From positions 1 to 64,000 of the forward strand of contig JAUZSN010000002.1 in NCBI GenBank assembly GCA_030949405.1: a stretch of 64,000 nt of DNA, written 5' to 3'. Position numbers and translations under genes: made by a program. This document shows positions 140-54,283 of the stretch, one piece after another; positions within the stretch are counted from its first letter, which is position 1, and each line of letters starts with the position of its first letter. A model generated the notes under the pieces. The model saw nothing but the letters and a program-made list of their open reading frames with translations, was not told where the DNA came from and searched no databases. The stretch comes from Methylococcales bacterium. GTDB lineage: Bacteria; Pseudomonadota; Gammaproteobacteria; Methylococcales; Methylomonadaceae.

Positions 140-364
140 TTACCGCGCTTCGAGTCGTTCTGCTAACCATATTTTTATGATAGATTGCCGTGTTATACCT
201 ATTCGGTTTGCTTCTTTATCTAGAGAATCAATTATCCAAATAGGAAAATCTACATTCACTCTTTTTTGTTGTTGATTTGGACGTTTTAGTGTGGATAAAT
301 CAAGATCACTAATTATATTTTCATTATTATCATCAAATTTCTTATCAAAAATTTCAGCTTTCAT
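140..364 (-). CDS. brnA: BrnA-like antitoxin
   Basis: 74 aa. The C-terminal half (about residues 38-74) looks like a ribbon-helix-helix/CopG-type DNA-binding segment: VNVDFPIWIIDSLDKEANR followed by GITRQSIIKIWLAERL. The N-terminus is acidic and flexible, as expected for the toxin-binding part. The gene overlaps the 3' end of the upstream brnT by 11 bp, which is the usual toxin-first order of type II BrnTA modules. In that family BrnA neutralises BrnT and autorepresses the operon. Family assignment rests on the residue pattern and gene order, not on a database search. Confidence 0.75.
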   Translation of the reverse strand: MKAEIFDKKFDDNNENIISDLDLSTLKRPNQQQKRVNVDFPIWIIDSLDKEANRIGITRQSIIKIWLAERLEAR

Positions 365-617
365 ATAGTTTTATCTCCGATTGTCGTGATCGTCGAACAG
401 AAATTATTCTGATATTACTTTCACGATAAGTTATAACTGCCGACCAATGTTTGTTAGCAATACAACCAATTATTAAAAATCGAGGTTCACCATCAGATGT
501 GGCTTGAACTTCAACAAGATCAGGGTCATTCCAAAGTGCTTGAGAAGACACAAAATCAATTTTGTGCTTATTTAAATTTGAAGCACTTTTATTATCATCA
601 AATTCAAATTTATACAT
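354..617 (-). CDS. brnT: BrnT-family toxin (ribonuclease)
   Basis: 87 aa, the normal BrnT size. Family hallmarks are the opening FEFDDNKSASNLNKHKIDF, a central GEPRFLIIGCI strand, and the closing RIISVRRSRQSEIKLYE (the usual IISAR/RRA..E motif). BrnT is a small RelE-like-fold ribonuclease that arrests translation until bound by BrnA. It is first in a two-gene operon and overlaps brnA. The pair stands beside IS and mercury-transporter debris, which suggests an accessory patch. An AT-rich leader upstream (about 618-660) is the likely autoregulated promoter, but no operator was resolved. Confidence 0.8.
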   Translation of the reverse strand: MYKFEFDDNKSASNLNKHKIDFVSSQALWNDPDLVEVQATSDGEPRFLIIGCIANKHWSAVITYRESNIRIISVRRSRQSEIKLYES

Positions 618-842: not shown

Positions 843-1232
843 TTGCGATTTGATGAATTGTTTGCAACCACAAGCGATTATGAAGACCTCAATGACCGCA
901 TCGCCAAAACACTGGCGAAAAAGACCGAATTATTGCGAGTTTTGGAACTTCCGAAATTACCATTACATAATAATGCAGCCGAACTCGGCGCAAGAAGACA
1001 AGCGCGTGCGCGAGACATAAGCTTCCAGACTCGAAATGAGAAAGGCACGAAAATCAAAGACAGTTTTATGAGTCTTGCTGAAACGGCTAAAAAACTAGCC
1101 GTGAGTTTTTATGATTATGTTTATGACCGAGTTAGTGGTGAATTCAAAATGCCGTCTATGGCGAATCTTATCGCTCAAAAAGCGCAAAGTTTGCAGGTCT
1201 GATATTTGTTTTACCCTGAAATTTAAAGTAGA
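843..1232 (+). mobile_element. IS66-type element, 3' end fragment
   Basis: The last 119 codons of the IS66-type transposase (stop at about 1200-1202) plus the terminal inverted repeat ending GTAGATAC at 1232. The sequence is nearly identical to the transposase 3' ends of the elements at 13044-14623 and 32886-34718, in opposite orientation. The transposase N-terminus and the other inverted repeat are missing, so this is a dead fragment. Its inverted repeat abuts a truncated ISAs1 transposase, so the IS66 element probably inserted into that gene and later lost its 5' part with the neighbouring DNA. Confidence 0.85.
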
Positions 1233-1592
1233 TACAATAATGGCTTGTTTTTCACCTGACTTAAGCGTGCCACGCATGACTTTGCCATCAATAGCAACCC
1301 ATTCATTGGCAATAATATGAGCTGTTTTTTCATCAAAAAAGGCATTAATTAACTGATTTAAGTCCTGCCAATCCAAATTTTCCAACATTCGTGGAAAATG
1401 CGCGCGAGAAACTAGAGGGGCATCTTTAATCCCAGTTACTTCACGCAGCCAGACAATTTTATGAGTCATATAACGATGAATACTGGATACTTTTGAGCGT
1501 CCAACCAGCATGGCAAAAACAACAGTGACGATAAAAAAGGTCAGTGAATGCTGCTTGCCGCGATTATCACGATAATCGGGGAGTCCTTTCAA
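1233..1592 (-). pseudogene. ISAs1-family transposase, 5' fragment
   Basis: About 120 residues of an ISAs1/H-repeat-type transposase N-terminus: GLPDYRDNRGKQHSLTF, a hydrophobic stretch, then WVAIDGKVMRGTLKSGEKQA with the first catalytic Asp in AIDGK. The frame runs into the IS66 inverted repeat at 1232 and the rest of the DDE domain is gone. The frame is also open upstream of 1592 to about 1660 (reading NNEPEITIEINERKFIDALK), so the true start may lie there, but no good ATG is visible. Confidence 0.8.
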
Positions 1593-2012: not shown

Positions 2013-3440
2013 TTGTCTTTTATCTCATTAATATTTCTACTTTTTTTTCTCATTGTCTTTCTACTTTATAGTCTTATTGAGGATCGTTTTAAATATATTT
2101 TATTGTTAATAGCCAGCTATATTTTTTATAGTTACTGGGATTGGCGATATTTTCCTTTATTATTAGGTTCCAGTTTTATAGATTATTATTGCGCCCAAAA
2201 AATGGGTAAACTTGAAACAAAAAAACAGCGGCGGCCTTGGTTATGGGTTTCATTAATCATTAACTTAGGCTTGTTGATTGGTTTTAAATATTGGAACTTT
2301 ATTGGCTATAACCTTAATAGCGTGCTTGGCTCCCACATTCAAGTTCATGACCTATTGCTGCCCTTGGGCTTATCCTTCTATACCTTACAAACCTTAAGTT
2401 ACAGTTTCGATATTTATTTAGGCAAAACAAAACCTGAACGACATTTTGGTTATTTTTGTTTATATGTCAGCTTTTTTCCTCAACTGGTTGCAGGCCCTAT
2501 CGAACGTAGCCGTCGCTTATTACCTCAACTTAAAACCTTAACACGGGCAACACACCACCAATTCCGCTATGGCGTACTTCTTGTTATTTGGGGCTTCTTT
2601 TTAAAAGTAGTGATTGCTGATAATTTGATTAGTTTTATTGGGTCGGTTTATTTTACAGAAACGCTGTTTCCTTTCTGGTTATATTGGTTTGTGGGGGGCT
2701 TAGTTTCCTTTAAAATTTATTGTGATTTCATGGCCTATTCAGAAATTGCTCGCGGACTGGCTTTACTCTTTGGGGTTAAATTAACCCTAAATTTCAAACG
2801 CCCTTTTTTAGCCACTAATATTCGTGGATTTTGGCAACGCTGGCATATCAGTTTAACCCGATGGATTGGGGATTATATTCATATTCCTTTATTGCAACGA
2901 TTCAAATCCTATTCAGGACGAGCATTAGTCACCGTTTTTACCCTGTGTTTAATTGGACTCTGGCATGGAGCAAGTTGGAATTTTATTTTATTTGGTTTAT
3001 TTCATGGAATCATTACTATTCTTTGGACACCCTTAGCGGATTTATTTAGATGGGCCTTTAATTTTAGATTTTCTATTCGGCAGTTTTGGGGACGTGTCAT
3101 TTTAGCGATTGTTTTATTATTAAGCGCGCCTATTTTTTATGTGATGGATACCGAAACGCTGTTTAGCATCTTAAAATCTATGTTTGATTTTAAAACGTTT
3201 TCGACTCCTCTGTCTTATGATCTTTGGAAAAATGACAGTTATCTTTTAATTGAGGCCTTATTTGGAATTGTTCTTTTAACAGGCTATAGCTTTATGGCAG
3301 AATACCGCAATACTGAAATGGTTGAGGTATTTGCAACCAGTCGATCTATTTTTCGTTGGGCTATTGCGGTTGTTTTTATATTATTAATTTTTATGTTTGG
3401 AAATTTTACCAATGAAAACTTCACCTATTTTGAATTTTAA
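2013..3440 (+). CDS. MBOAT-family O-acyltransferase (AlgI/DltB-like)
   Basis: 475 aa polytopic membrane protein. The MBOAT signature is complete: WHISLTRW (His about 278) and LWHGASWNF (catalytic His about 318), with the typical PQLVAGPIERSRRLLPQL loop near residues 156-172. It starts at a TTG preceded by AAAGGAAAGG, since no ATG lies near that site. Family members transfer acetyl or other acyl groups to exported polysaccharides or cell-envelope polymers. The downstream SGNH-like gene overlaps it by about 30-44 bp, so the two are translationally coupled and probably one acylation machine. The acceptor polymer cannot be told from sequence. Confidence 0.88.
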   Translation: MSFISLIFLLFFLIVFLLYSLIEDRFKYILLLIASYIFYSYWDWRYFPLLLGSSFIDYYCAQKMGKLETKKQRRPWLWVSLIINLGLLIGFKYWNFIGYNLNSVLGSHIQVHDLLLPLGLSFYTLQTLSYSFDIYLGKTKPERHFGYFCLYVSFFPQLVAGPIERSRRLLPQLKTLTRATHHQFRYGVLLVIWGFFLKVVIADNLISFIGSVYFTETLFPFWLYWFVGGLVSFKIYCDFMAYSEIARGLALLFGVKLTLNFKRPFLATNIRGFWQRWHISLTRWIGDYIHIPLLQRFKSYSGRALVTVFTLCLIGLWHGASWNFILFGLFHGIITILWTPLADLFRWAFNFRFSIRQFWGRVILAIVLLLSAPIFYVMDTETLFSILKSMFDFKTFSTPLSYDLWKNDSYLLIEALFGIVLLTGYSFMAEYRNTEMVEVFATSRSIFRWAIAVVFILLIFMFGNFTNENFTYFEF

Positions 3441-4473
3441 TTATTTGTCACGTGTTATTGGAATAGGGTTCGTATTAATTGGCCTATCGGTTTTTTTGCT
3501 GCATACGCTTTTTCCAACGATAGAACAAAGTCGGGAACGAAAAAAACTCATGGCCTACCAATCCGCTCAGGAATCAATGGAAGCCCTTGTTATTGGCTCA
3601 TCGCATAGCAGTAGTTTTCATTTACCCGCATTGGGTTTAAAAGGCTTTGATTTTCATGATTTAGGCGGCGATATTGAAGAGTTAACCCTGAAAACCCATA
3701 TTTTTTTAGATCGCTCGCCCAATCTTAAAACTGTTTTTATTCCTGCATCGCCAGCCACCTTTGCTTTATCACAAGTTTATCTGAGTGAAAACTATTCAAA
3801 ACGATTATTAATTGTGGCCTCAAACACGCCTTTATCATGGCCACTTTTTTTATTTGCTCCTGAAGAGACAGTGAGTCTTTTTGTGGATCAATTTGTGGGA
3901 ATTAAAAAATTCCGCAAAGCGTTCGATCATTTTTTAATTTCTTTTTTTTCAGGAAATGAAACCACGAATACAAAATGTACCTCTGCTGAAAATGCTCTTT
4001 TTATTAAACAAAATTATTCAATAGATGCTGATGATGATCTTTTTAATGACCATGATATTTGTACGATGCCCGCCCAAAATATTAAAAATCATGGAACAAT
4101 AGTCAGTGGGAATCATTTACGAAAATTTAAACTCAGTATTGAAAAAGAACCCAACATTGTTCAATCTAACTTACAGCGATTAATTAAATTAGCGGATAGA
4201 TTAGGCGAACGGCAAGGGCAGTTAATTTTAGTGATGACCCCTTACAGTGAAGATTTTTATGAGTCAACGGCGATCCAATCACTGAAAACAGCGCATTTAA
4301 GCGAACTTGCCTTGCTTGAAAAGCATCCTAACATTACAGTTTATGATTTTCATGATTATTTTTATAGTCGAGTGACAGCGGATAAAAATGATTATTTTTA
4401 TGACAGCAATCATCTATCAACCCGAGGAGCTATCGAGTTTAGTCAAGCCCTTAAAATAAAGATGGGGTTGTGA
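3397..4473 (+). CDS. SGNH-hydrolase-like partner of the MBOAT acyltransferase
   Basis: Up to 358 aa. One N-terminal membrane anchor (about residues 18-37) is followed by a periplasmic domain. The Ser motif GSSHSSS (Ser about 68) and the C-terminal DSNHLS block (Asp/His pair, about 340-345) fit the SGNH/GDSL fold of AlgJ/AlgX/DltD-type proteins that work with MBOAT transferases. The start may be ATG 3397 or ATG 3412 (MKTSPILNF); both overlap the upstream gene. It probably transfers or removes acyl groups on an extracytoplasmic polymer. Substrate is unknown. Confidence 0.72.
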   Translation: MEILPMKTSPILNFNYLSRVIGIGFVLIGLSVFLLHTLFPTIEQSRERKKLMAYQSAQESMEALVIGSSHSSSFHLPALGLKGFDFHDLGGDIEELTLKTHIFLDRSPNLKTVFIPASPATFALSQVYLSENYSKRLLIVASNTPLSWPLFLFAPEETVSLFVDQFVGIKKFRKAFDHFLISFFSGNETTNTKCTSAENALFIKQNYSIDADDDLFNDHDICTMPAQNIKNHGTIVSGNHLRKFKLSIEKEPNIVQSNLQRLIKLADRLGERQGQLILVMTPYSEDFYESTAIQSLKTAHLSELALLEKHPNITVYDFHDYFYSRVTADKNDYFYDSNHLSTRGAIEFSQALKIKMGL

Positions 4474-4528: not shown

Positions 4529-6694
4529 CTAAACGAGAGAAGAACCTTGTAGCCTTATCATCCACGGTTCTTTGTTTTTAGGGTTAACATGAAAAGCCAG
4601 TGATTCATTTTTATGTCGTAACCCTGCCACACCCGAAGCATTCGGGTTTAATTGGCGTTTTTCAACAAAATCAACCAATCGTCGAGTGTTATAAATAACT
4701 AAAATCCGTGAACCATTTTTACTGCTGTAAACTTGATAGGCTACATTATTTTCGTTAAAGGCTGGATTACGCGCCATTAAGGAATCAATTTCATCCTGAT
4801 TATTGTTGGCTAAATTTTTTAAAATAGATTCCTCGCGAGTGGTTATTTGTTGTCGCAAATACGTCGCTAGCGTCCTGTCTATTTGATGCTGTTGATAGAT
4901 TTCAACTTCTTTCATACTCACATCAAAACTTTCCGCAACAAGGTAATGTTGATCTTTTTCACCATCATTGGCAAACAGCGAAATCTTATCTAAACAAGAT
5001 TCTTCTATCGCATGTAAAAACGAACGCGGGGCGCGTAAATGTTTATAAACCGTAATCACCCAAGGTAAGGCCCGCCCTGTCTCTTCATAGCGTAACTTAA
5101 CACTGTCAATTACATCCGATCGTTGTAATTCTTGTTCCCGCCCTTTCGGTTTAACAATAAAAGCATCGACGGCAATGACGTGTGATTTAAAACCGTAGCG
5201 TTTAAATTTTTCAACAATGGTGGAATAGCGCGGTATAAACGGAATCCCTGTGCCATCATATAAAAGGTTAATTCGATTTTCTTTTGCGTATTCGGCGACT
5301 AAATCACGTAAAAAATTCGCAAACGGTTCGACATAAACATAATCATCACTATGGTGATCCGCTGCGGTTAACACACAATAAAGGTCGCTTTGTTTACGAA
5401 ATTCATCTAAGGACGCAATCACAAAATTATCACCACATTGCGCTTGTGCCATTTCTTCGACCGCTGTTTTCCCCGCTCCTGCTCCGCCCATCGAAATAAA
5501 TAATTTAGGATTTTCATCAGGAACTTTGCCTTTAAAAATAGCCTGTTTGGTCGCTTCTAATTTAAGAACCATTTGCTCAATTCGAGGAATGGCAATTTCA
5601 ACCGTCCGCTGTAAACGAACATCATTTTTGGCGGCTTCCAATAAGTTATTTTTTAACGATTCATTGTGAGCAAGTAACGATAACGACGTATTTTCGCCCT
5701 CACATTCGGTTAATAGCTCACGCAGTTGCGTTTGTCCAATGGAACTCAGCCCCGTTAATATATTAATATCTAAACAAAATAATGGGACTGCACCGTTTTC
5801 ACCAATCATAATCCCGTCAATTTCTGTTTTACCCGCGACGCGTAATAATTCGGTATTCGGTAAATAACCAATAATATTATCGGGTTCACATAATGGGTAA
5901 TCGGCTAAATGTTTGCCTGCTAAAAATAATTTCTTTTTAATCGTGGCTAATGGGACTAAGCCGCCATTAACAGCCACTAAACAATTAACGCCCTCGGCGG
6001 TGGTATGTGATAAAAAAGGAAATCCCGAAATATATTTTTTATTTTCGGCCCATTTACCGTAGCCATTGGCTACATTTGCTAAATTTTTATTACGACTAGG
6101 ATCGAGGGCATGTTTAAACGCACTAATAATCGCCTCTCTCTTTTCTTTTGAGTCGTGTAAGGCAACGGCATCCACTTGAGTGATGCGTCTAAAATCAATT
6201 CCTTGTCCATACACCGCATTGAACGCGGGTAATTTTCCAAGAATCGTCATAAAAAAATCTAAGGTAATTCGATTACCATAGTTAAAAGGACGAATTGATC
6301 GCATTTTAAGATAAAATTTTGCCAGTCTTTTCGCTATATTCTTTGATTGAATAACAAAACCATTATTATCAAAAATAGCGGTTTTAGTATGCAAATCACC
6401 ATCTAAGACTAACGTTCCAATGGCTTGCCTAAATTTTTGACGTTTTTTAGCATCGGGCATTGTTCCTGGGCGATGCGATACCGTGGCTTGTTGTTGCCAG
6501 TGATGAAAAATTTCACGGTGAATTTCAGAAAAAAGGCCAATTAAGTAGCTCACACGTTTTGTTTGATCGTGTGAAACCGTTGCCGATGTTTTTTGCAATA
6601 AGGTATATAATAATTTGGTTCCTTGAGAAATAGCCAGTGCCGTCCGTAGCTTTTTAAGCTGCTCATCATCTGAAATCGTTACTTGTTTTTCCAT
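4529..6694 (-). CDS. Zeta-toxin-domain protein with a Fic-like N-terminal half
   Basis: 721 aa, far longer than a plain zeta toxin (about 250-290 aa). Residues 398-570 are the zeta-type P-loop kinase: Walker A GGAGAGKT (403-410), ASLDEFRK, and a YDGTGIPF strand. In the family these phosphorylate UDP-N-acetylglucosamine or other small molecules. Residues 120-200 resemble a Fic/Fido domain: FYLKMRSIRPFNYGNR (about 127-142) lines up with the Fic motif HPFxxGNGR but has Arg for the catalytic His and lacks one Gly. No adjacent antitoxin gene is seen. The gene stands alone. A G10 tract fills its ribosome binding site. The kinase call is firm; the Fic relation and the toxin role are inference. Confidence 0.75.
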   Translation of the reverse strand: MEKQVTISDDEQLKKLRTALAISQGTKLLYTLLQKTSATVSHDQTKRVSYLIGLFSEIHREIFHHWQQQATVSHRPGTMPDAKKRQKFRQAIGTLVLDGDLHTKTAIFDNNGFVIQSKNIAKRLAKFYLKMRSIRPFNYGNRITLDFFMTILGKLPAFNAVYGQGIDFRRITQVDAVALHDSKEKREAIISAFKHALDPSRNKNLANVANGYGKWAENKKYISGFPFLSHTTAEGVNCLVAVNGGLVPLATIKKKLFLAGKHLADYPLCEPDNIIGYLPNTELLRVAGKTEIDGIMIGENGAVPLFCLDINILTGLSSIGQTQLRELLTECEGENTSLSLLAHNESLKNNLLEAAKNDVRLQRTVEIAIPRIEQMVLKLEATKQAIFKGKVPDENPKLFISMGGAGAGKTAVEEMAQAQCGDNFVIASLDEFRKQSDLYCVLTAADHHSDDYVYVEPFANFLRDLVAEYAKENRINLLYDGTGIPFIPRYSTIVEKFKRYGFKSHVIAVDAFIVKPKGREQELQRSDVIDSVKLRYEETGRALPWVITVYKHLRAPRSFLHAIEESCLDKISLFANDGEKDQHYLVAESFDVSMKEVEIYQQHQIDRTLATYLRQQITTREESILKNLANNNQDEIDSLMARNPAFNENNVAYQVYSSKNGSRILVIYNTRRLVDFVEKRQLNPNASGVAGLRHKNESLAFHVNPKNKEPWMIRLQGSSLV

Positions 6695-7023: not shown

Positions 7024-9180
7024 ATGTATTTTGTCGTAAAAAAAACGTTACAATGGATACTAGGCTTTCTTTTCCGTATTGATATTCATGGACTAGAAAA
7101 TTATCACAAAGCAGGCGATAGAGTCTTAATTATTGCCAATCATACTTCTTTTTTAGACCCGTTATTACTTGGTGTTTTTTTACCCGATAAAGTAACCTTT
7201 GCGATTAACACCCATATTTCTCAACTTTGGTGGTTAAAGCCGTTCTTATGGTTATCCGATGTTTTTCCAATGGATCCCACACACCCGATTTCGCTTAAAA
7301 ACTTAATCCATCATCTTAAAACCGATACTAAAACGGTTATTTTTCCTGAAGGACGTATTACGACCACAGGCGCGATGATGAAAATTTATGATGGAACGGG
7401 CATGGTCGCTGATAAATCGGGCGCCGCTATTTTACCCATTCGGATTTCAGGGGCTGAATATACGCATTTCTCAAAACTTAAAAACATCGTCCGACTCCGT
7501 TTTTTCCCTAAAATTACCCTGCATATTTTACCGCCAACGACAATTCGTGCCGATGAAAAGTTACGGGGACGATTACGTCGTCAAAACAGCGGTCATGCGT
7601 TAGCTGATTTAATGAACCAAATGATGTTCACAACCAGCTCTTATCAACAAACGCTGTTCTCAGGTTTATTAGATGCCCGAACCATTCATGGGGGAAATTA
7701 CCCCATTGTTGAAGATTTAACCCGACAACCCTTGACTTATAACGCACTGATAACTCAAACGATTGCGCTTGCTAATGCCTTTGAGTTATTAACCCAGCCC
7801 GATGAAGCGATTGGAGTCTTTTTACCCAATTCTAGTAAAACCTTGGTGGTTATCTTAGCCTTGCAACTCAATAACCGCATTCCCGCGCTATTGAATTACA
7901 CTATGGGTTCCGTCGGTATGCTGTCTGCCTGTCATACCGCAGACGTGAACACGGTTTTAACCTCACGACGGTTTATTGAATTAGGTAAATTAGAGGCGGA
8001 AGCGGAGGCACTAAGTCAATCATTAAACTTGGTTTATTTAGAAGACATTGCCGAAAAAATAACCCCGCGTGATAAAATAAATGCATTAACACAAACATGG
8101 ACGGCCAATTATTGGTACCCTAAAAAATCACAGGATCCCGACCGTGCAGCCGTTATTTTATTTACCTCAGGTTCAGAGGGAACCCCTAAAGGCGTGGTTT
8201 TATCACACCGTAATATTTTAGCTAATATCAATCAAATTAAATCCCGAATTAGTGTTAATGCACAGGATAAGGTCTTAAATTTTTTACCGCTGTTTCATTC
8301 CTTTGGCTTTACCGCTGGGACGATATTACCGCTAATGAGTGGGATAAAAATCTTCTTTTATCCCACTCCATTGCATTACACCATTATTCCTGAACTAGCG
8401 TATGAATTAAACGCGAGCATTATGTTTGGCACCAATACTTTTTTAGCCGCTTATGCTAAAAAAGCCCATGCCTATGATTTTCATAACATGCGTTATGTGG
8501 TGGCAGGGGCTGAAAAATTACAGCAACCCACTCGTGATTTATGGATGCAAAAGTTTGGAATTCGTATTTTAGAAGGCTATGGAGCCACCGAAACCACCCC
8601 TGTTATTTCAGTTAATACCTTTATTGATTTCAAACAAGGAACCGTTGGCCGTTTTCTACCAGGAATGAGCTATAAATTAGAAAAAATAGCTGGAATCGCA
8701 ACAGGGGGGCAACTGCATGTCTCAGGATTCAATGTCATGAAAGGCTATTTATTAGCCGATAACCCCGGTAAATTAGTTCCGCCGCATTCTATTTATGGTG
8801 ACGGTTGGTATGACACGGGCGATATTATTGAAGTCGATAGCGAAGGTTACATTTTAATTAAGGGCCGTAGTAAACGATTTGCAAAAATTGCAGGTGAAAT
8901 GGTCTCATTAGCCGTTGTTGAAGAATTAGCCACCAAAACATGGCCTGATGCCCATCATGTCGCGGTTAACTTACCTGATAGTCGTAAAGGTGAAAAAATA
9001 ATTTTACTGACGACCCAGAAATCGGCCGATCCACACGCATTAAAAAAAATGGCTAAAGGACTTTCCGCTATTCATCTACCCCGTACTATTTTTACCGTTG
9101 AAAAATTTCCATTATTAGCCACGGGGAAAACGGATTACCCTAAAGCAACCGAAATGGTCCTTGAAAAACTAAACGCTTAA
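7024..9180 (+). CDS. aas: Bifunctional acyltransferase / acyl-ACP synthetase
   Basis: 718 aa fusion. Residues 1-200 are a PlsC-type acyltransferase: NHTSFLD (His40, Asp45) and FPEGRITTTG (107-116). Residues 225-715 are an AMP-forming acyl-CoA/ACP synthetase: TSGSEGTPKG (381-390), YGATETTPV and a YDTGDII block. This layout matches Aas (2-acylglycerophosphoethanolamine acyltransferase/acyl-ACP synthetase), which re-acylates lysophospholipids at the inner membrane. The start is ATG 7024 after AGGAGAAA. mltA begins 17 bp downstream, so the two are probably cotranscribed and both concern the envelope. The MFS domain (LplT) sometimes found with aas is absent. Confidence 0.85.
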   Translation: MYFVVKKTLQWILGFLFRIDIHGLENYHKAGDRVLIIANHTSFLDPLLLGVFLPDKVTFAINTHISQLWWLKPFLWLSDVFPMDPTHPISLKNLIHHLKTDTKTVIFPEGRITTTGAMMKIYDGTGMVADKSGAAILPIRISGAEYTHFSKLKNIVRLRFFPKITLHILPPTTIRADEKLRGRLRRQNSGHALADLMNQMMFTTSSYQQTLFSGLLDARTIHGGNYPIVEDLTRQPLTYNALITQTIALANAFELLTQPDEAIGVFLPNSSKTLVVILALQLNNRIPALLNYTMGSVGMLSACHTADVNTVLTSRRFIELGKLEAEAEALSQSLNLVYLEDIAEKITPRDKINALTQTWTANYWYPKKSQDPDRAAVILFTSGSEGTPKGVVLSHRNILANINQIKSRISVNAQDKVLNFLPLFHSFGFTAGTILPLMSGIKIFFYPTPLHYTIIPELAYELNASIMFGTNTFLAAYAKKAHAYDFHNMRYVVAGAEKLQQPTRDLWMQKFGIRILEGYGATETTPVISVNTFIDFKQGTVGRFLPGMSYKLEKIAGIATGGQLHVSGFNVMKGYLLADNPGKLVPPHSIYGDGWYDTGDIIEVDSEGYILIKGRSKRFAKIAGEMVSLAVVEELATKTWPDAHHVAVNLPDSRKGEKIILLTTQKSADPHALKKMAKGLSAIHLPRTIFTVEKFPLLATGKTDYPKATEMVLEKLNA

Positions 9181-50217: not shown

Positions 50218-51336
50218 AGACTTGTTCTTCTAAATAAAATATATTAAAATCAATTGCTTATATATACTTGATAACATTCACAATCAGTTGATACAGCCTA
50301 ATAAATAAACTTTAAATTAAATTATTAAAAATAATAAATAAGCTTTATAATAAATTTCTATAAAAAATAAAAATCAAAGTATAACATGAAAATAAAAGAA
50401 ATTTTACCAAGAATTTATGATGATAGACAGTTAAGAGCTTTAACAGGATTAAAAACAGAACATTTTATTTTACTATTATCTCTATTTGAAAAGACCCTTA
50501 TTGAAGATCAAAAAGAAAAACATGAAAATAAAGAAAGAAAATACGGTAGTGGTTTAGATAGCACATTAAAAACACCCGCAGACAAATTATTATTTATATT
50601 AAATTATATGAAGTGCTATTCTACTTTCGATCACTTAGGGTTTTCTTTTAATATGAATAAATCATGCGCCCATACTCATGTATACAAATTATTTCCAATT
50701 TTAATAAAGACGTTAGATATATTTAATGTTTTACCTGCAACAAGTTTTTCAACCCCTGAAGAAATGCAGCAGGCTTTTGGCGGAGTTCAAACATTGATAA
50801 TAGATACTACAGAGCTTGCTGTACAACGCCCTAGTGACTATGAAGAACAAAATGAATTTTACAGTGGTAAAAAAAACAGCATACAATTAAAAATACCACT
50901 ATAGCTTCTTTAGGTCATTTAATTTTATATATTGGGGTTAGTTTTCCAGGTAAAAATCATGATTATGGAATGTTTAAAAAAGAATTTAATCCAGAATTAA
51001 ATTGGTTTAGTAATTTTAATATATTTATTGATTTAGGTTATTTGGGGTTTAATAATGAATATAAAACTAATTCGGTAAATATTCCTCATAAAAAACCAAA
51101 TAAATCTAAGCATAATCCAAACCCAACATTAACTGAAAAACAAAAAAAAGAAAACAAAGAGATGAGTCGTGAAAGAGTCATTGTTGAGCATGTAATCGGT
51201 GGAATGAAAAGATATAGATGCCTAGTTGACAAGTTTAGAAATAAAAAAGAAGGTGTAAAAGATTTATTTTCTTTTTTAGCGGCTATCCTATGGAATTTTA
51301 ACATGATATATTAACTTCTTCTTAAAGAACAAGTCT
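50218..51336 (+). mobile_element. IS5-family element, copy 1
   Basis: 1119 bp. Inverted repeats AGACTTGTTCTT / AAGAACAAGTCT. Flanked by ATT on both sides, a 3-bp duplication as in several IS5 subgroups. First of three copies in a tandem array. Between the small leftward gene and the IS (50026-50217) there is only AT-rich sequence. Confidence 0.85.
50386..51314 (+). CDS. IS5-family transposase, copy 1 (needs -1 frameshift)
   Basis: First frame 172 aa (50386-50904): N-terminal HTH region, then IIDTTELAVQRP with the first catalytic Asp and FYSGKK. At the A8 run (about 50869-50876) a -1 shift gives KKKQHTIKNTTIASLGHL and joins a second frame that ends at 51314 with FIDLGYLG (second Asp) and VEHVIGGMKRYR (Glu). 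This is the DDE_Tnp_4 pattern. A-run recoding is well known for IS transposases, so copy 1 may be functional. Confidence 0.75.
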
Positions 51337-51417
51337 ATTGAGTTTAAATAGAAAATTAACCTATAAAAAAACTCTGTTTTTGTTAGTGTTGTTAACGCGT
51401 CTCTATAAAATTTAATA

Positions 51418-51446
51418 TTGACAGAAAGTAAGCAAGCTGATAATTT
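51418..51446 (+). promoter_or_regulatory. Old hrcA-operon promoter (duplicated)
   Basis: Consensus -35 TTGACA (51418-51423), 17-bp spacer and TAATTT (51441-51446), just upstream of the CIRCE half-site. The same promoter recurs in the second unit at 52893-52921. It would drive transcription into the IS copies and on towards grpE-dnaK. Confidence 0.65.
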
Positions 51447-51452
51447 TGAAGG

Positions 51453-51478
51453 ATGGCAGTCTTTTGTTTGAGTGCTAA
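51453..51478 (+). promoter_or_regulatory. Degenerate CIRCE operator
   Basis: GAGTGCTAA (51470-51478) is the exact right arm of the HrcA-binding CIRCE element. The left arm position reads ATGGCAGTC, 6 of 9 matches to TTAGCACTC with an 8-bp instead of 9-bp spacer. Repeated at 52928-52953. Decay of the left arm is consistent with loss of HrcA. Confidence 0.6.
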
Positions 51479-51498
51479 TTTATAATCAAAGGATTAAT

Positions 51499-51533
51499 GT
51501 GACGAAGACGTCCCATTTAAATGACCGTTCATC
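51499..51533 (+). pseudogene. hrcA: hrcA 5' fragment, unit 1
   Basis: GTG after AAAGGA reads VTKTSHLNDRSS, the usual HrcA start (…LNERSQ…), then runs into the MITE-like element. After that element, GCTTTGATAAACAAACTAAT reads ALINKLI, matching the next HrcA residues, before IS copy 2. An identical piece lies at 52974-53008. The middle of hrcA is absent. Confidence 0.6.
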
Positions 51534-51668
51534 AATACTTCGGACAGTTTTTGTAACCCATTGATTTTAAAAATAATTTAGCAACACATCTCGTAAATGT
51601 AAAACCCTTTAAAATCAATACCTTATAGAATTAAGACCGCTACCTTTTTTAAAACTGTCCGAAGTATT
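51534..51668. mobile_element. MITE-like element in hrcA (135 bp)
   Basis: Ends AATACTTCGGACAGTTTT and AAAACTGTCCGAAGTATT are an 18-bp perfect inverted repeat. No coding capacity. It interrupts the first codons of hrcA. The second copy is at 53009-53143 as part of the tandem duplication. No parent transposase for these ends is seen in the window. Confidence 0.7.
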
Positions 51669-51691
51669 GCTTTGATAAACAAACTAATAAT

Positions 51692-52811
51692 AGACTTGTT
51701 CTTCTAAATAAAATATATTAAAATCAATTGCTTATATATACTTGATAACACTCACAATCAGTTGATACAGCCTAATAAATAAACTTTAAATTAAATTATT
51801 AAAAATAATAAATAAGCTTTATAATAAATTTCTATAAAAAATAAAAATCAAAGTATAACATGAAAATAAAAGAAATTTTACCAAGAATTTATGATGATAG
51901 ACAGTTAAGAGCTTTAACAGGATTAAAAACAGAACATTTTATTTTACTATTATCTCTATTTGAAAAGACCCTTATTGAAGATCAAAAAGAAAAACATGAA
52001 AATAAAGAAAGAAAATACGGTAGTGGTTTAGATAGCACATTAAAAACACCCGCAGACAAATTATTATTTATATTAAATTATATGAAGTGCTATTCTACTT
52101 TCGATCACTTAGGGTTTTCTTTTAATATGAATAAATCATGCGCTCATACTCATGTATACAAATTATTTCCAATTTTAATAAAGACGTTAGATATATTTAA
52201 TGTTTTACCTGCAACAAGTTTTTCAACCCCTGAAGAAATGCAGCAGGCTTTTGGCGGAGTTCAAACATTGATAATAGATACTACAGAGCTTGCTGTACAA
52301 CGCCCTAGTGACTATGAAGAACAAAATGAATTTTACAGTGGTAAAAAAAACAGCATACAATTAAAAATACCACTATAGCTTCTTTAGGTCATTTAATTTT
52401 ATATATTGGGGTTAGTTTTCCAGGTAAAAATCATGATTATGGAATGTTTAAAAAAGAATTTAATCCAGAATTAAATTGGTTTAGTAATTTTAATATATTT
52501 ATTGATTTAGGTTATTTGGGGTTTAATAATGAATATAAAACTAATTCGGTAAATATTCCTCATAAAAAACCAAATAAATCTAAGCATAATCCAAACCCAA
52601 CATTAACTGAAAAACAAAAAAAAGAAAACAAAGAGATGAGTCGTGAAAGAGTCATTGTTGAGCATGTAATCGGTGGAATGAAAAGATATAGATGTCTAGT
52701 TGACAAGTTTAGAAATAAAAAAGAAGGTGTAAAAGATTTATTTTCTTTTTTTAGCGGCTATCCTATGGAATTTTAACATGATATATTAACTTCTTCTTAA
52801 AGAACAAGTCT
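51692..52811 (+). mobile_element. IS5-family element, copy 2
   Basis: 1120 bp, one T longer than copy 1 (T7 before AGCGGC near 52751). Left flank AAT, right flank ATT, so no simple target duplication; this fits a position created by recombination or tandem duplication rather than a fresh insertion. Confidence 0.85.
51860..52776 (+). pseudogene. IS5-family transposase, copy 2, C-terminal frameshift
   Basis: Same two-frame plan as copy 1 with the A8 slip site. The extra T near 52751 changes the last residues to SFFSGYPMEF, losing LAAILWNFNMIY. The catalytic Glu region (VEHVIGG) is before the shift, so activity is uncertain. Confidence 0.75.
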
Positions 52812-53166
52812 ATTGAGTTTAAATAGAAAATTAACCTATAAAAAAACTCTGTTTTTGTTAGTGTTGTTAACGCGTCTCTATAAAATTTAATATTGACAGA
52901 AAGTAAGCAAGCTGATAATTTTGAAGGATGGCAGTCTTTTGTTTGAGTGCTAATTTATAATCAAAGGATTAATGTGACGAAGACGTCCCATTTAAATGAC
53001 CGTTCATCAATACTTCGGACAGTTTTTGTAACCCATTGATTTTAAAAATAATTTAGCAACACATCTCGTAAATGTAAAACCCTTTAAAATCAATACCTTA
53101 TAGAATTAAGACCGCTACCTTTTTTAAAACTGTCCGAAGTATTGCTTTGATAAACAAACTAATAAT
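52812..53166 (+). repeat. hrcA: Duplicated spacer (hrcA control region), unit 2
   Basis: Same as 51337-51691, offset 1475 bp: promoter TTGACA at 52893, GAGTGCTAA at 52945-52953, GTG start at 52974 and MITE 53009-53143. It directly precedes IS copy 3. Confidence 0.85.
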
Positions 53167-54283
53167 AGACTTGTTCTTCTAAATAAAATATATTAAAATC
53201 AATTGCTTATATATACTTGATAACACTCACAATCAGTTGATACAGCCTAATAAATAAACTTTAAATTAAATTATTAAAAATAATAAATAAGCTTTATAAT
53301 AAATTTCTATAAAAAATAAAAATCAAAGTATAACATGAAAATAAAAGAAATTTTACCAAGAATTTATGATGATAGACAGTTAAGAGCTTTAACAGGATTA
53401 AAAACAGAACATTTTATTTTACTATTATCTCTATTTGAAAAGACCCTTATTGAAGATCAAAAATAAAAACATGAAAATAAAGAAAGAAAATACGGTAGTG
53501 GTTTAGATAGCACATTAAAAACACCCGCAGACAAATTATTATTTATATTAAATTATATGAAGTGCTATTCTACTTTCGATCACTTAGGGTTTTCTTTTAA
53601 TATGAATAAATCATGCGCTCATACTCATGTATACAAATTATTTCCAATTTTAATAAAGACGTTAGATATATTTAATGTTTTACCTGCAACAAGTTTTTCA
53701 ACCCCTGAAGAAATGCAGCAGGCTTTTGGCGGAGTTCAAACATTGATAATAGATACTACAGAGCTTGCTGTACAACGCCCTAGTGACTATGAAGAACAAA
53801 ATGAATTTTACAGTGGTAAAAAAACAGCATACAATTAAAAATACCACTATAGCTTCTTTAGGTCATTTAATTTTATATATTGGGGTTAGTTTTCCGGTAA
53901 AAATCATGATTATGGAATGTTTAAAAAAGAATTTAATCCAGAATTAAATTGGTTTAGTAATTTTAATATATTTATTGATTTAGGTTATTTGGGGTTTAAT
54001 AATGAATATAAAACTAATTCGGTAAATATTCCTCATAAAAAACCAAATAAATCTAAGCATAATCCAAACCCAACATTAACTGAAAAACAAAAAAAAGAAA
54101 ACAAAGAGATGAGTCGTGAAAGAGTCATTGTTGAGCATGTAATCGGTGGAATGAAAAGATATAGATGTCTAGTTGACAAGTTTAGAAATAAAAAAGAAGG
54201 TGTAAAAGATTTATTTTCTTTTTTAGCGGCTATCCTATGGAATTTTAACATGATATATTAACTTCTTCTTAAAGAACAAGTCT
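53167..54283 (+). mobile_element. IS5-family element, copy 3
   Basis: 1117 bp, AAT on both sides. It is the junction copy: hrcA 5' remnant on the left, hrcA 3' remnant on the right. The transposase is decayed (see the pseudogene entry). Confidence 0.85.
53335..54261 (+). pseudogene. IS5-family transposase, copy 3, decayed
   Basis: A GAA to TAA change at 53464 stops the first frame after EDQK. The slip run is A7 rather than A8, and a one-base loss lies in TTTTCC-GGTAAAAATC near 53895. Remaining frames match copies 1 and 2. Confidence 0.88.

Follow-up and report, generated by a model that had tools for sequence, protein, structure and literature searches.

Earlier work has described Fic domains, including degenerate ones, and zeta homologues with several domains. 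In the Fic motif the Pro, the Phe, the first Gly and the Asn are structural, the His acts as the base, the Asp or Glu is the Mg ligand, the second Gly has to be small so that the triphosphate can bind, and the beta and gamma phosphates are held by two Arg (PMC8401265). The Bep8 class retains the structural residues but has other residues in the catalytic places, with a Glu at the second Gly (PMC8401265). In zeta toxins, Asp67 has been proposed as the base, Thr118 is a ligand of the UNAG phosphate (PMC3062530), and the GTxR motif binds UNAG (PMC6362051). AvrRxo1 and Rv0366c are zeta-fold kinases that have no GTxR motif, and AvrRxo1 phosphorylates NAD (PMC5087710). EzeT, a solitary long zeta homologue, can be silenced by its own N-terminal domain (PMC4803016, PMC4826407). 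We found no account in the open-access literature of a Fic-zeta fusion, of the protein family described here, or of zeta toxins in methanotrophs.

The window is a stretch of 64,000 nucleotides from a Methylococcales genome that carries a PF02461 (AMO/PmoA) gene, from which we take the host to be a methanotroph. On its minus strand (as for all parts of the gene given below), positions 4529..6694 hold a complete ORF of 721 aa counted from an ATG, with full-length orthologues at 59-83% identity, and this protein almost certainly joins a Fic-like domain to a zeta-type kinase. Such a fusion had been suspected in the first-pass annotation and is borne out by the Zeta_toxin profile match and by the Fic-like predicted structure of the N-terminal half. 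A strand-rich middle region (residues 205-304; 5783..6082) and the C-terminal part (residues 591-721; 4532..4924), the last 40 residues of which are modelled with low confidence, have no Pfam family above threshold.

The assignment of the C-terminal half to the zeta-type P-loop kinases stands. The core (residues 388-578; 4961..5533) matches Pfam Zeta_toxin (PF06414) with E 1.3e-15 and 57.8 bits against a cut-off of 22.3, the same profile is matched in 17 of 17 members, and sequence searches of the PDB returned only zeta and PezT toxins (E 2e-6 and 6e-6). The structural match of the full-length model to the zeta toxin 1gvn spans residues 305-682 (Z 15.6). In the alignment to 1gvn, Lys46 corresponds to K409 of the P-loop GGAGAGKT (residues 403-410; 5465..5488), Asp67 to D430 (5405..5407) and Thr118 to T482, all three being invariant across the 81 orthologues; the residue in the place of Glu100 varies (D, S, G or others). 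The place of the UNAG motif GTxR is taken by DGTGI (residues 480-484; 5243..5257), with the form DGT[G/S/C]I, i.e., Arg replaced by Ile, throughout the 81. With K409, D430 and T482 kept, GTxR lost, and AvrRxo1 and Rv0366c as precedents, we infer from the sequence that this half is probably an active kinase and that its substrate is probably other than UNAG.

For the N-terminal half, structure prediction and comparison with Fido folds had been named beforehand as the test. We used two AlphaFold2 models, one of the full length from a 17-sequence alignment (pLDDT 75.5) and one of residues 1-330 from an 81-sequence alignment (pLDDT 77.4). The helices agree between them, and in both residues 3-204 (6083..6688) adopt a Fido fold. 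Both are of moderate confidence (pLDDT 75-77), with values below 50 in parts of the kinase lid (513-551). Among Fic structures the full-length model was closest to Bep8 (Z 13.5, residues 3-203, 164 aligned), with other Fic domains below. The best 50 Foldseek matches of the N-terminal model against the whole PDB were all Fic (probability 0.85-1.00), headed by Bep8 (E 9.5e-4, probability 1.00), and in the VIA structural alignment all 50 listed matches were again Fic (Z 9.7-13.7), with Fic-1 first (Z 13.7, rmsd 4.7, 159 aligned), then Bep8 (13.4) and EcFicT (13.0). No unrelated fold was seen among them. Together, AlphaFold2, Foldseek and VIA place in this half the Fic helical core with the active loop between its two central helices. 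Z can be inflated for helical folds; even so, a match list confined to one superfamily and obtained from two models gives strong support to the predicted Fido fold.

Sequence comparison is less one-sided, and it bears on the possibility that this half is not Fido at all, a convergent motif having misled the models. No Fic family scored above threshold in the 721-aa protein (PF02661 reached 13.1 bits, under the gathering score of 24 bits), and a Fic HMM built for the purpose gave the family no score above background. A profile-profile comparison with 17 Fic proteins of relatives likewise gave no Fic match; those proteins belong to a different class, and diversity within the family alignment is low (Neff 2). 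Helical bundles also yield middling Z values. Against this, the two models agree although the alignments behind them differ (17 and 81 sequences), every N-terminal match listed is Fic, and PF02661 matches the same residues below threshold in ca. 10 orthologues (at best 20.6 bits, E 0.0014 per genome, model positions 5-92 of 93), which are related and hence not independent tests. In a separate hmmscan the profile was found, also below threshold, in 3 of 17 members (best E 0.0039). We consider a non-Fido origin extremely unlikely. The Fic-like stretch with FYLKMRSIRPFNYGNR (residues 127-142) and GQGIDFRRI (residues 163-171), which had been read as a parallel to the Fic core, is conserved in 81 of 81 orthologues, coincides with the sub-threshold Fic matches and lies within Fic-like predicted structures; on this combined evidence the likeness is no chance resemblance. 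In the same region (6107-6349, minus strand; residues 116-196), covering the Fic motif, PADLOC gave a weak match to the candidate defence protein PDC-S04 (E 0.01).

The Fic loop itself, RPFNYGNRITLD (residues 135-146; 6257..6292), is degenerate. The motif HPFx(D/E)GNGRTxR aligns without gaps to R135-P-F-N-Y139-G-N-R142-I143-T144-L-D146, anchored by N141 on the Asn and T144 on the motif Thr, with the helix register unchanged, and the consensus in 81 orthologues is [R/K]-P-[F/Y]-x-Y-G-N-R-[I/L]-T-L-D. The loop-forming PFxxGN is kept (P in 78, F or Y at 137 in 81, G140 and N141 in 81), whereas the places of the catalytic His, the Mg acid, the second Gly and the two Arg are held by R/K (R 78, K 3), Y (80), R (78), I/L (with some V at 143) and D (80); T144 is found in 78. 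The canonical HPFx(D/E)GNGRxxR occurs in none of the 81. The first-pass annotation was thus right that the catalytic His is replaced by Arg and that the AMPylation residues are lost, but the Gly of GNGR is not missing: it is substituted by Arg, and it is the following motif Arg that has become Ile or Leu. With the structural residues kept and the catalytic set replaced, canonical AMPylation has very probably been lost. Ahead of the motif helix lies a probable flap, FDNNGFVI (residues 108-115; 6350..6373), so named for its position as in Fic flaps, in which F108, D109, N111, G112 and F113 are invariant in 81; behind it, D167, F168, R169 and R170 of GIDFRR (residues 165-170; 6185..6202) are invariant too. 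The inhibitory-helix motif (S/T)xxxE(G/N) was present in at most 4 of 81 sequences at any one place.

The gene is monocistronic and lies between divergent and convergent neighbours. Upstream, a 718-aa ORF of acyltransferase/AMP-ligase type (by eye) starts at 7024 and diverges across 329 bp; downstream, an SGNH-type ORF ending at 4473 converges on it from behind an MBOAT ORF. These last two (2013-4473, plus strand), an MBOAT acyltransferase (PF03062) overlapping the SGNH-like protein, resemble a polysaccharide O-acetylation pair. A BrnT toxin (PF04365, E 3.8e-24) and, after it, a CopG/BrnA-like antitoxin ORF form an ordinary type II pair ca. 4 kb away (140-617, minus strand). The window also contains a truncated transposase-like ORF (1095-1592, minus strand; DDE type, ISAs1-like by eye) and three near-identical consecutive insertion-sequence-like units of low GC (25-27%) at 50386-54261 (plus strand), in each of which the transposase is split into two ORFs, the third unit being shortened at its start. 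Across 81 loci no neighbour is conserved: the commonest immediate upstream neighbour, the glycyl-tRNA synthetase alpha chain (by eye), occurs 15 times in one lineage, and the commonest downstream neighbour 9 times. The upstream neighbour is on the same strand in only 32 of 79 loci, which argues against an operon partner. No small upstream ORF stands out, and the epsilon antitoxin (PF08998) was above cut-off in none of 41 relatives' genomes, so the suggestion that the protein has no partner antitoxin holds for the loci and genomes covered.

In a sample of one genome per species, drawn from Pseudomonadota only, the protein was present in single copy in 108 of 201 Methylococcales genomes, about half; two genomes with double entries have one split gene each. 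The named carriers are Methylomonas, Methylobacter, Methylovulum, Methylotuvimicrobium, Crenothrix and other Methylococcales, the rest being bins labelled Gammaproteobacteria or proteobacterium, and the genome scan counted 89 relatives beyond those listed. Outside the order, the class-wide sample gave 2 positives in 369 genomes, both of the source genome's own family, and the phylum-wide sample 1 in 398, the source genome itself. The N-terminal part alone as query retrieved the source gene and one stray match of 24 residues. Two genomes had seemed to carry Fic-only truncations, but these are contig ends. No match was obtained in phages, plasmids or viral contigs, and a mobile origin was rejected on that count. 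As far as seen, the family is confined to methanotrophs and chromosomal, being found neither elsewhere in the sampled Pseudomonadota nor in phages or plasmids. In the gene tree the sequences of Methylomonas, Methylovulum, Methylotuvimicrobium and Methylobacter largely group together, as would suit an inheritance that is mainly vertical, with losses. Mean pairwise identity is 70% in the Fic part, 76% in the kinase core and 58% in the C-terminus. Both domains are under strong purifying selection (low dN/dS, e.g., Fic 0.018/0.233, zeta 0.033/0.337), and for the Fic part dN/dS is below ca. 0.1 in less saturated pairs (0.018/0.233; 0.025/0.722; 0.002/0.286).

These patterns bear on the reading of the protein as the ordinary toxin of a toxin-antitoxin pair, with its antitoxin gene at some other locus. 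Zeta and Fic are each characteristic toxin domains, but there is neither an adjacent antitoxin nor an epsilon above cut-off in the relatives, copies on plasmids or phages are lacking, and retention is order-wide in single copy; this explanation is very unlikely. With a Fic half very unlikely to be an AMPylase, a zeta half that has no UNAG motif, and single-copy, non-mobile conservation throughout the order, a regulated housekeeping kinase fits better than a toxin pair, and the protein is probably a self-controlled kinase and not a classic toxin. The reading that we prefer, though tentatively and at somewhat less than even odds in its full form, is that of a single-chain methanotroph kinase with a dead Fic domain as cis regulator. 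The zeta-type domain would bind ATP at its P-loop (K409) and, with D430 as the Asp base, transfer phosphate to a hydroxyl group on some small metabolite of the cytosol. This substrate is probably a nucleotide, or a compound linked to one, but not UDP-GlcNAc. The catalytically dead Fic domain would serve as a built-in regulator of the kinase, a proposal made by analogy with E. coli EzeT, and control in cis might be exerted through a ligand in the remodelled Fic pocket.

The conserved charged residues of that pocket (R132, R135, R142, D146, R169 and R170) could, on the other hand, serve ligand binding or catalysis instead of plain regulation. The degenerate site might still be enzymatically active in a new way: Arg at the His and at the second Gly would bind a nucleotide, or a side chain that carries a modification, for another reaction, and the protein would be bifunctional. 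The near invariance of the replaced residues (R135 as R/K in all 81, G140 and N141 in 81, R142 in 78, D146 in 80) and the low dN/dS would suit such an enzyme; it has been proposed that Bep8-type Fic domains, in which the second Gly gives way to a bulky residue, bind AMPylated targets, and non-canonical Fic motifs can carry out phosphocholination or phosphorylation (PMC8401265). Yet nothing at the His position is evidently a general base, neither the Mg ligand nor either of the two Arg that bind phosphate is left, and conservation alone suits a binding or regulatory site, which makes this unlikely in our judgement. That the Fic-like domain recruits or targets, its flap binding a partner protein so that the kinase phosphorylates this partner or its ligand, seems unlikely too. 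The flap-like FDNNGFVI is invariant at five positions, Fic flaps bind targets, and BepC, with a non-canonical motif, acts through GEF-H1 binding with no known enzymatic activity (PMC8401265), but no partner gene is linked and the zeta kinases of the cited literature act on small molecules. A combined view, in which a Fido domain with Arg at the His and second Gly acts as a conserved sensor of a ligand, or as an enzyme with new chemistry, and so controls a zeta-fold kinase with a new substrate, as a methanotroph-specific single-protein switch made from two toxin folds, we regard as possible but doubtful.

If the dead-Fic regulator reading is true, two toxin folds have merged and been kept as a chromosomal, order-wide regulatory enzyme, one of the folds now being a conserved pseudo-enzyme. 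It would bear on the control and substrates of the solitary long zeta homologues, a known but scarcely characterised group, and since the gene is carried by culturable hosts, e.g., Methylotuvimicrobium buryatense 5G and Methylomonas, deletion and biochemistry are feasible.

The closest relatives of the N-terminal half are Bep8 and degenerate class I Fic domains (4py3; PMC8401265), with which it shares the fold, the PFxxGN loop, a bulky residue at the second Gly and the loss of the AMP-transfer residues. Bep8, however, is a Bartonella effector with Glu at that Gly, whereas the present protein is from methanotrophs, has Arg there, has no BID secretion domain and is fused to a zeta kinase. The class I Fic toxins VbhT, EcFicT and Fic-1 have the fold in common (Z 12-14), but here the catalytic motif is lost, and neither an adjacent FicA-type antitoxin nor a conserved cis (S/T)xxxE(G/N) is present. 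With zeta and PezT toxins (1gvn, 2p5t) our protein shares the kinase fold, the P-loop, the catalytic Asp and the Thr118 equivalent; it differs in having no epsilon or PezA partner and no GTxR, and in its length (721 aa against ca. 250-290). The zeta-fold NAD 3'-kinase AvrRxo1 (4z8v) matches structurally over 251 residues (306-710), keeps the P-loop and is likewise devoid of the UNAG motif; it has no Fic domain, and the likeness is one of fold (Z 13.5) at ca. 14% identity. EzeT of E. coli is likewise solitary and long, has an additional domain at its N-terminus and lacks a separate antitoxin (Rocker and Meinhart 2015; PMC4803016, PMC4826407). Its N-terminal antitoxin part is ca. 83 residues and its kinase makes UNAG-3P, whereas the methanotroph protein has a predicted Fic-fold N-terminus and has lost the UNAG motif.
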